From Prevotella dentasini JCM 15908 (lineage in GTDB: Bacteria; Bacteroidota; Bacteroidia; Bacteroidales; Bacteroidaceae): DNA of 64,000 bases. Position numbers and translations under genes: made by a program. Under the pieces are notes generated by a model that was given only the letters and a program-made list of their open reading frames with translations, did no database searches and was not told the origin of the DNA. Shown in pieces: positions 4,603 through 58,178 of this stretch; position 1 is the stretch's first letter, and every line of letters starts with the position of its first letter. The DNA lies in assembly GCF_000614065.1 (NCBI RefSeq), contig NZ_BAKG01000014.1, positions 1 through 64,000 on the forward strand. The letters run 5' to 3'.

Positions 4603-5049
4603 CTAATAGCCCTTGGGGAGAAACTCTGCGATGTCCCTTCCGAAGTGTTTCAGTTCGCGGACAACGCTCGAGCTGATACTCCCGTATCGTGGTTCGGCAA
4701 AGAGGAGGAGAGTCTCTATTCCGCTCAGCTGGCGGTTGATGTCGGCCTGTTCGCGCTCATACTCGAAGTCCTTGACGCTCCGCACACCTTTTATTATATA
4801 GTCTGCCCGTTCGCGCTGTGCAAAGCCGATGGTCAGGTCGCTGTATTCCTTTACCTCAATCTTCGGCTCCCGTGCGTAGAGACGGGCGATGCGCGCCACC
4901 CGTTCGTCTGCCGTGAGCATGTATTTCTTGCGTTCGTTGACTCCTACCCCGACGACTATACGGTCGAACAGCGGCAGCGTGCGGCGCACGATGGAGTCGT
5001 GTCCGATGGTGAAGGGGTCGAAGCTGCCGACAAAGATAGCTGTTTTCAT
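4603..5049 (-). CDS. coaD: Phosphopantetheine adenylyltransferase
   Basis: CoaD transfers AMP from ATP to 4'-phosphopantetheine, the penultimate step of coenzyme A synthesis, in the cytosol. The nucleotidyltransferase signature GSFDPFTIGH lies at the N-terminus and the SISSSVVREL motif near the C-terminus. I choose the ATG at 5047-5049 (MKTAIFVGSFDP) because the family starts just before the GSFDP motif; the longer frame adds 17 residues without similarity. The promoter box at 5119-5126 supports this start. It is probably co-transcribed with ybeY. The length of 148 residues is close to normal, slightly short. Confidence 0.93.
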   Translation of the reverse strand: MKTAIFVGSFDPFTIGHDSIVRRTLPLFDRIVVGVGVNERKKYMLTADERVARIARLYAREPKIEVKEYSDLTIGFAQRERADYIIKGVRSVKDFEYEREQADINRQLSGIETLLLFAEPRYGSISSSVVRELKHFGRDIAEFLPKGY

Positions 5050-57040: not shown

Positions 57041-57652
57041 TCAGCCGTGCTGTTGCTCGCCCTTCACATAGAGCTTGTGGTGGGACGTGCTCACGTTGCG
57101 AATCCTGCCGTCGGCCTCCAGCCGGGCGGCGAGGCGGTAGGCATGGCTCCGGGAGAGGTTGAGACGGCGGCGGAGGCTGGCAACGGTGATGGCCGGCTGC
57201 GTGGCGAACAGGCTGTCGAGGACCGTGCCGAGAGCCTCGTCGGTGGGTACGGTAGGCGTGCCGCGGGTGTAGGTAGCGTTGCTGAACTCAATGCCGCGGA
57301 GGGCTTCGAGGAACTCGGTGTCGGGATGGAACTTCACCTTCCGCACCTCGGGATTGCGCAGCCGGTAGTGATGCGAGCGCGGGTCTTCGTAGAGGTCGCC
57401 CCGTATGGCGAGCGAGAAGTAGCCGATGCCGGGCAGGTGGACGTTGTTGCCCATCTTGAGTTCTTCGGCAATCTCGTCCTTCAGGGCTGTGAGCGCGCCT
57501 ATGATGTCTGCCGGAGTGAGCGACGTGGCTTGCTGAATGTGGCGGCTGATGCGCTTGAGTCCTACGGTCTCGTTCTCTACTGCGACCACCTTGTAGGCCG
57601 TTTTGCCCGAGATGGGGCTATGGTTCCTGATGAGCTTATAAGATACTGACAT
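57041..57652 (-). CDS. HU-related DNA-binding protein with C-terminal winged-helix-like domain
   Basis: This 203-residue protein has an HU-like N-terminal domain (SVSYKLIRNHSPISGKTAYK, then RHIQQATSLTPADIIGALTA and the beta-arm region VHLPGIGYFSLAIRGDLYED), about residues 1-125. The C-terminal part (about 145-190) has a helix-turn-helix-like segment, TVASLRRRLNLSRSHAYRLA, ending RLEADGRI. HU-related proteins are common in Bacteroidota, but the added helix-turn-helix is notable. Its 5' leader carries four 22-bp palindromes, possible operators, so autoregulation is likely (inference). Confidence 0.75.
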   Translation of the reverse strand: MSVSYKLIRNHSPISGKTAYKVVAVENETVGLKRISRHIQQATSLTPADIIGALTALKDEIAEELKMGNNVHLPGIGYFSLAIRGDLYEDPRSHHYRLRNPEVRKVKFHPDTEFLEALRGIEFSNATYTRGTPTVPTDEALGTVLDSLFATQPAITVASLRRRLNLSRSHAYRLAARLEADGRIRNVSTSHHKLYVKGEQQHG

Positions 57653-57699
57653 GACTTTTCCTTAATGTCTGTGTTGGTGGATATGGAGGTTTCAGAACT

Positions 57700-57783
57700 G
57701 TCTCACTATTATGAGACGGTTGTCTCACTATTATGAAACGATTGTCTCACTATTATGAGACGTTTGTCTCACTATTATGAGAC
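57700..57783. repeat. Four 22-bp tandem palindromes in the HU-like gene leader
   Basis: GTCTCACTATTATGAGAC occurs at 57700-57717, 57722-57739 (one change, GAAAC), 57744-57761 and 57766-57783, at an exact 22-bp period with 4-base spacers. Each is GTCTCA-6-TGAGAC. They lie between the promoter (57801-57832) and the start codon at 57652, so they are transcribed. They may be protein-binding operators or RNA hairpins. Confidence 0.93.
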
Positions 57784-57800
57784 GAATATAATTCTTGGTG

Positions 57801-57832
57801 CAAAGATAATGCAAATCCTTGGTATATGCAAG
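57801..57832 (-). promoter_or_regulatory. Promoter of the HU-like gene
   Basis: On the minus strand CTTG (57829-57832), 20 bases, TATCTTTG (57801-57808). A start near 57795 gives a leader of about 140 bases that contains the palindrome array. Confidence 0.75.
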
Positions 57833-58178
57833 AGGAAAGCATGGGGAAACGTTTTCCGCCCTGCGCCTGTGGGTGTGTGGGGCGCGCATGTACCGTCCGG
57901 TCGGGCAGGGATGGCCTCGCCTGTGGAGGGCGGTTGCGGTGGCTTTTCGTCGTAGCACACGGCAAAAGCTGCGTGGCAGGCCTGCTGCCACAGCCGGACG
58001 GAAGTCTATATATTAAGGTGTGGCGCGTGGATGGCAGGCAGCCGGGAGTTTTTCCTGAAAGTTTTTGGTGGTGGATAGTGGAGATGTCAATACGCTGAAA
58101 ATCAGCTGTTTGTCAGCCTGAATCTAACTTCCGTTGCCTTTCTGAAGGAAAATAATTTGAAAAAAAGTTCATGAAAAG
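57833..58178. other. Divergent intergenic region
   Basis: About 345 bases between two promoters. Several short frames overlap but none has protein features. Nothing more is supported. Confidence 0.5.

Follow-up and report, generated by a model that had tools for sequence, protein, structure and literature searches.

What is the purpose of four evenly phased palindromes standing between the promoter and the start codon of a gene that encodes a DNA-bending type of protein? The question is raised by the window, a stretch of 64,000 nucleotides from Prevotella dentasini JCM 15908, for which an earlier note had described GTCTCA-N6-TGAGAC repeated four times in 22-bp phase, at 57700, 57722, 57744 and 57766. 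The array is confirmed as four 18-bp palindromes spanning 57700-57783 at exact 22-bp steps, three of them perfect and the one at 57722 carrying a single mismatch. Its placement is borne out as well, since it lies between TATCTTTG (57808-57801), which we take to be a Bacteroidetes -7 box of consensus TAnnTTTG, and the ATG at 57652 on the minus strand. The features of the locus are collected in Table 1.

Table 1. Features of the HU-wHTH gene and its leader in the window (unit numbers follow the putative transcript).
Feature	Coordinates	Strand	Basis or remark
HU-HIG + winged-helix (HU-wHTH) protein P0001, 203 aa	57041..57652	-	ORF, profiles, AlphaFold2, fold comparison
Region from -7 box to start codon, containing the array	57653..57800	-	sequence; putative transcription start
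Palindrome unit 4	57700..57717	.	exact GTCTCA-N6-TGAGAC
Palindrome unit 3	57722..57739	.	one mismatch, TGAAAC
Palindrome unit 2	57744..57761	.	exact GTCTCA-N6-TGAGAC
Palindrome unit 1	57766..57783	.	exact GTCTCA-N6-TGAGAC
Bacteroidetes -7 box TATCTTTG (TAnnTTTG)	57801..57808	-	starts 25 bp before the first palindrome

Single units of this kind are not rare: five with at most two mismatches were found against a shuffle mean of 2.77, and at least five appeared in 15 of 100 shuffles. Dimers at the 22-bp step with at most one mismatch, by comparison with a reversed control pattern that gave none, number 14 in the window genome. A chance origin of the array is rejected on this control and on the excess of the 22-bp step, over other steps and over shuffles, in the leaders of related genes.

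The encoded protein was expected to combine an HU-like domain with a C-terminal helix-turn-helix, and profiles and a structural model agree on this. Residues 1-124 of P0001 match the HU-HIG profile PF18291 (E 1.8e-27, 96.3 bits against a gathering cut-off of 26.2), and the C-terminus matches IclR/MarR-like helix-turn-helix profiles, with HTH_IclR at 144-185. Against the NCBIfam model TIGR01201 (HU_rel), P0001 scored 47.5 bits, below the curated cut-off of 68.6. An AlphaFold2 model built from 28 input sequences (mean pLDDT 83.9, pTM 0.55) makes both domains visible: residues 29-121 adopt an HU fold and align with HU proteins, while residues 136-201 align with winged helices, including that of the TtgV-operator complex; winged-helix families beyond the structural matches listed may fit as well. 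The HU/IHF fold with a C-terminal fusion domain, as found in the HU-HIG family, is thus present in the model, whose predicted recognition helix covers residues 168-180 and has residue 170 at its start.

We examined whether the arrangement recurs at 32 named loci chosen by protein alone, which come from oral Prevotella, Hoylesella, Segatella maculosa, Alloprevotella, one Hallella and two MAGs, and which give 33 HU-wHTH genes together with the window. A detector indifferent to sequence, which looks for palindromes repeated at a step p within 450 bp upstream of the gene, found step-22 chains at 14 of the 33 genes under strict criteria (shuffle mean 0.1) and chains at each of the other 17 steps from 16 to 33 in 0-1 leaders. 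Throughout the 326.5 kb of the 32 named loci there are 16 step-22 arrays, 13 of them located 100-300 bp upstream of an HU-wHTH gene; eight other steps from 18 to 26 give 0-1 arrays each. Similarly, a four-unit score summed over 34 leaders (the 33 and that of L119) reaches 807 at step 22 versus 606-657 at steps 18-21 and 23-27, with 17 loci passing 25 of 36 at step 22 versus 0-1 at other steps. Weaker arrays are also present when the leaders are read by eye.

What is kept in these leaders is the layout, and the sequence changes. The units include TTATCACCATGGTGATAA, TTTTCATCATGATGATAA, TTCCCAACGGGTTGAGAA, GTCCCTTCGGGAAGAGAC and TTATTTACACGTAAATAA, and three leaders (L089, L091 and L109) show, by eye, 17-bp palindromes at a 21-bp step. 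No clear array was found in the leaders of L083, L090, L108 and L098 among the 33, the last having only 190 bp of upstream DNA; read by eye, the L090 leader and that of the related L089 are alike only in the part that lies downstream of the array. The array is present without a box at the usual spacing in L112 and in the distant L119. One HU-wHTH gene of genome G084 (L058) has an expanded leader array of seven units. A general 2+2 order of the linkers was rejected, with linker 1 equal to linker 3 or to its complement in 6 of 21 leaders, and so was an operon partner, because the neighbours are not conserved and the largest other family occurs at 3 of the 33 loci.

The earlier note had reasoned that arrays absent from close relatives would speak against its proposal; most relatives' leaders carry arrays, of differing sequence. 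Its suggestion to look for GTCTCA arrays near homologues was sound in that arrays recur at HU-wHTH genes, and too narrow in that a literal GTCTCA search would miss them: of 149 genomes, only two, the window genome and G026, have the GTCTCA dimer when up to one mismatch is allowed. When 393 genomes of the order were searched, eight proved to have a relative at E<=1e-15, the window genome included; this search supplied 12 of 14 further loci, two more coming from another search. Clear arrays (z of at least 6 in the best test) stand at L123, L223, L224, L228 and L235, borderline ones at L227 and L234 and weak ones at L229 and L232; no array was found at 5 of the 14 (L118, L222, L225, L230 and L233). 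Judged from these sequence comparisons, the leader layout is a genuine cis-regulatory architecture that recurs at HU-wHTH genes of oral Prevotellaceae, and arrays also occur at some further members of the Bacteroidales.

The distance between promoter and array is nearly constant. At a lenient cut-off of 18 of 36, 26 leaders were fitted: 25 from the set of 33, and L223, picked because it has an array. Counted from where the box starts, the array begins after 24 bp in 17 of them, 23 bp in six, 22 bp in two and 25 bp in one. The fetched DNA, 2.4 Mb in all, contains 2,587 TAnnTTTG boxes; when a score of at least 22 of 36 is demanded, 25 of them are followed by an array at 22-26 bp, and 23 of these are HU-wHTH leaders (21 distinct, two appearing twice). 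The other two are L090:8035 and a minus-strand box located upstream of L112, the Hallella gene. The full layout is therefore present in 21 of 33 leaders, versus 2 of about 2,560 other boxes. Among the 14 further loci, only L223 has a box at the usual spacing (23 bp), so that beyond the first set the array recurs and the promoter offset is seen once.

Half-sites with the consensus [T/G]TNTC[A/T]NCA vary together with the protein. Over 24 genes, no protein column is more strongly associated with positions 5 (z 8.2) and 6 (z 5.6) of the half-site than residue 170, which explains 71% and 62% of their variation, respectively, figures that are uncorrected for kinship. The largest z overall, 10.7, belongs to HU-domain column 21 with half-site position 1, and HU-domain column 29 is second to residue 170 at position 5 (z 6.8). 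T6 together with A7 is found in five of five Y170 genes versus 1 of 19 others; T6 without A7 also accompanies V170 (L099, L101 and L110). Y170 appears on four branches of a FastTree tree of the HU domain only. Contrasts that fit include Hoylesella saccharolytica (Y170, TTCCTTACA) versus Prevotella sp. SUG325 (S170, TTCCCAACC) and P. falsenii (Y170, TTATTTACA) versus the window (H170, GTCTCATAA), and a misfit is the TAC half-site shared by P. denticola (Y170) and P. multiformis (N170).

Distances between whole domains point the same way in part. The winged-helix distance predicts operator distance given the HU distance (partial r 0.193, p 0.026), and the HU distance given the winged-helix distance yields no prediction (partial r 0.089, p 0.14). 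The 12 residues 165-176 of the recognition stretch, taken together, do not predict operator distance beyond the HU domain (partial r 0.067, p 0.26), and the HU domain keeps its association with the operator given that stretch (partial r 0.283, p 0.003). These covariations are correlative, cover 24 genes and take relatedness into account through the HU-domain tree only.

The idea that the array is confined to one leader is rejected by the window genome itself (41 contigs, 86% complete), in which GTCTCA arrays occupy five intergenic places: the window's own contig C28 (four units), C30 (three), and C37, C39 and C40 (four each). Only the C28 copy has a promoter box at leader spacing. By eye, the neighbouring genes are divergent at three of the five and co-directional at two. 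At C40 the array stands between the arms of a 45-bp inverted repeat that has one mismatch (L009:4516-4560 and 4655-4699), the only long inverted repeat seen at the five arrays, the other four having been compared by eye; further copies of its left flank were not found in the window genome at E<=0.01. The C37 and C39 arrays (L007:4265-4348 and L008:4560-4643) have, by eye, their unit centres in the same order and 4-bp linkers that are reverse complements in reversed order. Other 22-bp-step arrays of this genome (L202:2471-2543, L219:5192-5275, L206:17106-17145, L220:6432-6471 and L212:17250-17311) belong to types around AAAAGTACGTACTTTT and TTATACAA-N2-TGTATAG, for which no cognate leader was seen; P. 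vespertina has look-alikes of these types at L094:9892-9975 and L090:8036-8119.

Relatives also carry dispersed arrays. Per approximately 400 kb, step-22 arrays found without regard to sequence number seven in H. marshii, 14 in P. pallens and seven in the window genome, counts that include HU-wHTH leaders in the first two species and some weak, AT-rich arrays; the one control genome, G016, which has no close HU-wHTH gene, has one step-22 array. Other steps give 0-4 arrays. When 26 genomes were searched for TTAC-type dimers with up to two mismatches, 93 were found in G017 (P. falsenii), 105 in G084 and 62 in G443 (P. pallens), all three of which carry the TTAC type in a leader, with three in G076, two in G183 and none in the remaining 21 of the 26 (12 with the protein and nine chosen for lacking a close one). 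The match of type is imperfect, as TAC-type leaders occur in G183, with its two dimers, and in G227, with none. GTNTCA-type dimers number 88 in G026 and 34 in G003, genomes whose leaders (L056 and L107; L055) carry GTTTCATCA units. No matching leader was seen for the array types GTTTCAGATATCTGAAAC of P. pallens (G443) and GTTTCATACGGTTGAAAC of G359, or for two types of the window genome. Contig C4 of G075 holds 12 GTTTCA-type dimers, and the HU-HIG relatives seen in that genome are matched over the HU part only.

Of the 20 dispersed arrays fetched from G084, 16 consist of exactly four units; the flanks of the G084 arrays are only weakly conserved. An open frame of at least 60 aa overlaps the array in 4 of the 20, so not every one is proven intergenic. 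Where both neighbours were called, 9 of 16 lie between convergent genes, which argues against a regulon of neighbouring genes there; the five window-genome arrays, in contrast, do stand upstream of genes. A role as operators of adjacent genes was rejected, given that none of 23 further arrays (nine from the window genome, six from H. marshii and 8 of 14 listed in P. pallens) has a T[A/T]nnTTTG box at 22-26 bp, L165 having one at 18 bp. Among the one-mismatch TTAC dimers of G084 in the matches listed, 37 of 38 are on C1 (1.97 Mb) and one is on C2 (0.71 Mb); clustering about an origin was considered, and the GC skew is too weak and uneven to locate one.

Broader co-occurrence was set aside as evidence. 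Among 398 genomes, 17 have a close protein (E<=1e-50), and GTNTCA-type dimers occur in nine of these versus 9 of the 381 others (Fisher 1.6e-9). This comparison is biased to one type and uncorrected for relatedness, and counts of 1-3 are background because the reversed control matches seven of the 398 at 1-3 places each. A Fisher test of 3 versus 23 genomes, framed post hoc, is given no weight either. Carriage by phages was likewise rejected: 15 stretches of viral contigs matched the peptide pattern and none encodes a relative. The exact GTCTCA dimer was found in no viral contig and in no contig of the species collection, both sets from which near genomes may be absent.

The reading that we favour, with a probability of about 0.78, is that the array is an autoregulatory operator of the HU-wHTH protein encoded downstream, and that this protein also binds dispersed arrays of the same type. 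In this view the winged helix would mediate the binding of dimers to the 18-bp palindromes. Four such dimers would be lined up at intervals of two helical turns over about the first hundred transcribed bases, at a distance from RNA polymerase so short that a fixed spacing could matter. The HU domains would bend the DNA, and the bound complex close to the start site would repress or tune transcription of its own gene. Dispersed arrays of the same sequence type would draw on the same pool of protein, and we propose that its synthesis could in this way be set against the number of sites. For the binding of the protein to its own leader, two helical turns apart, as the earlier note had put forward, layout, spacing and residue-170 covariation offer strong comparative support.

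The other possibility in that note, four hairpins in the transcript, is disfavoured, and we regard a control of translation, stability or termination by such hairpins as highly improbable. The array lies downstream of the promoter box and is probably transcribed, and each unit is able to form a hairpin. Constraint on RNA, however, predicts more G.T than A.C among mismatched pairs on the transcribed strand, and the reverse is observed, with 82 A.C versus 47 G.T (50 versus 36 when the central pair is left out). Spacing is constant nearly to the base, in the linkers, from unit to unit and from the promoter, and such closeness in so many leaders fits proteins stacked on one face of the DNA; the mostly convergent setting of the G084 arrays also disagrees with a leader RNA. 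Searches of the window leader and of 12 loci among the 32 named gave no Rfam family at its gathering score; at window positions 57500-57950 the only matches were four weaker ones of 15-17 bits. DNA sites might instead serve another regulator that binds the arrays and controls the gene, which could explain the orphan array types of several genomes and the arrays of G075, a genome without a close HU-wHTH gene. Against such a regulator, which we consider very unlikely, the layout of promoter and array is found almost only at HU-wHTH genes in the sampled DNA, these genes have no shared conserved neighbour, and half-site changes track residue 170 of the HU-wHTH protein itself.

An unlikely explanation, though it carries somewhat more weight, is that the arrays belong to a mobile or selfish repeat of intergenic DNA, a MITE or a minisatellite similar to BrickBuilt or PINSR, for which the leader was one landing place. 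It agrees with the five places in the window genome and the many more in some relatives, with the inverted repeat around the C40 copy, and with one BrickBuilt copy listed beside an HU-type (PF00216) gene (PMC4596501). It leaves unexplained the near-fixed promoter spacing at HU-wHTH genes whose repeats differ, as well as the covariation with the recognition helix. As a view of how the dispersed copies spread, it is a fair account.

A bolder extension of the operator reading is possible, and we hold it tentatively, as rather doubtful: HU-wHTH proteins may be nucleosome-like, sequence-specific architectural proteins, four dimers of which would wrap about 84 bp at each four-palindrome site. The site at their own promoter would act as a counter, the matching dispersed sites would organise the chromosome, and proteins and site types would co-diversify, giving each species or paralogue a private set.

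These findings propose a function for an uncharacterised family of HU fusions and offer a candidate protein for the dispersed intergenic repeats of oral Prevotella. They point to a family of self-controlled DNA-binding proteins with dispersed sites of their own, a system for studying how such a protein and dozens of sites shift specificity together. The layout is so strict that sequence could suggest where the operator of many members lies.

Searches of the open-licence literature listed no description of HU-wHTH genes with such arrays. By profile, P0001 is a member of HU-HIG (PF18291), with its HU domain fused to a winged helix; the Pfam description of the family deals with domains only and includes neither an operator array nor dispersed sites. 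Noc, SlmA and ParB are chromosome proteins with dispersed sites that bind sequence-specifically at several chromosomal locations, and their folds and sites differ from the HU-wHTH protein and its arrays. The IclR-type regulator TtgV likewise differs in the rest of its structure and in its operator. Its likeness covers the winged helix only, which aligns over 65 residues with TtgV on its operator (PDB 2xro; Z 8.2, rmsd 2.6).

Two families of repeats bear comparison. BrickBuilt is a minisatellite-MITE of Porphyromonas gingivalis with a 23-nt unit, leader and tail segments and IS5-like ends (PMC4596501), and it resembles the arrays in being made of short tandem repeats, in its intergenic position and in belonging to a Bacteroidales species. 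One copy, BrickBuilt_14, adjoins a gene annotated as PF00216 (HU type) (PMC4596501). Its 23-nt unit differs from the 22-bp step of the leader array, so the tandem unit is not the same, no promoter phasing or palindromic operator is described in the parts covered, and the string 'palindrom' is absent from its text (PMC4596501). PINSR is a dispersed intergenic repeat of unknown function, specific to the P. intermedia/nigrescens group; two strains of P. intermedia have 177 and 184 copies, and it also occurs in P. nigrescens, P. falsenii and P. disiens (PMC4755523). It is described as a 188-bp repeat, and the accessible part of the account names no HU gene (PMC4755523). P. pallens had a lane in the PINSR PCR and is not among the positives named in that part (PMC4755523), yet it has 62 TTAC-type dimers here. 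The weakly conserved flanks of the G084 arrays are a further point of difference. PINSR shares with our arrays a dispersed and intergenic distribution, and P. falsenii, one of its hosts (PMC4755523), carries 93 TTAC-type dimers. Compared by description and species range only, as far as the available account extends, PINSR may be one such array type, the TTAC type.
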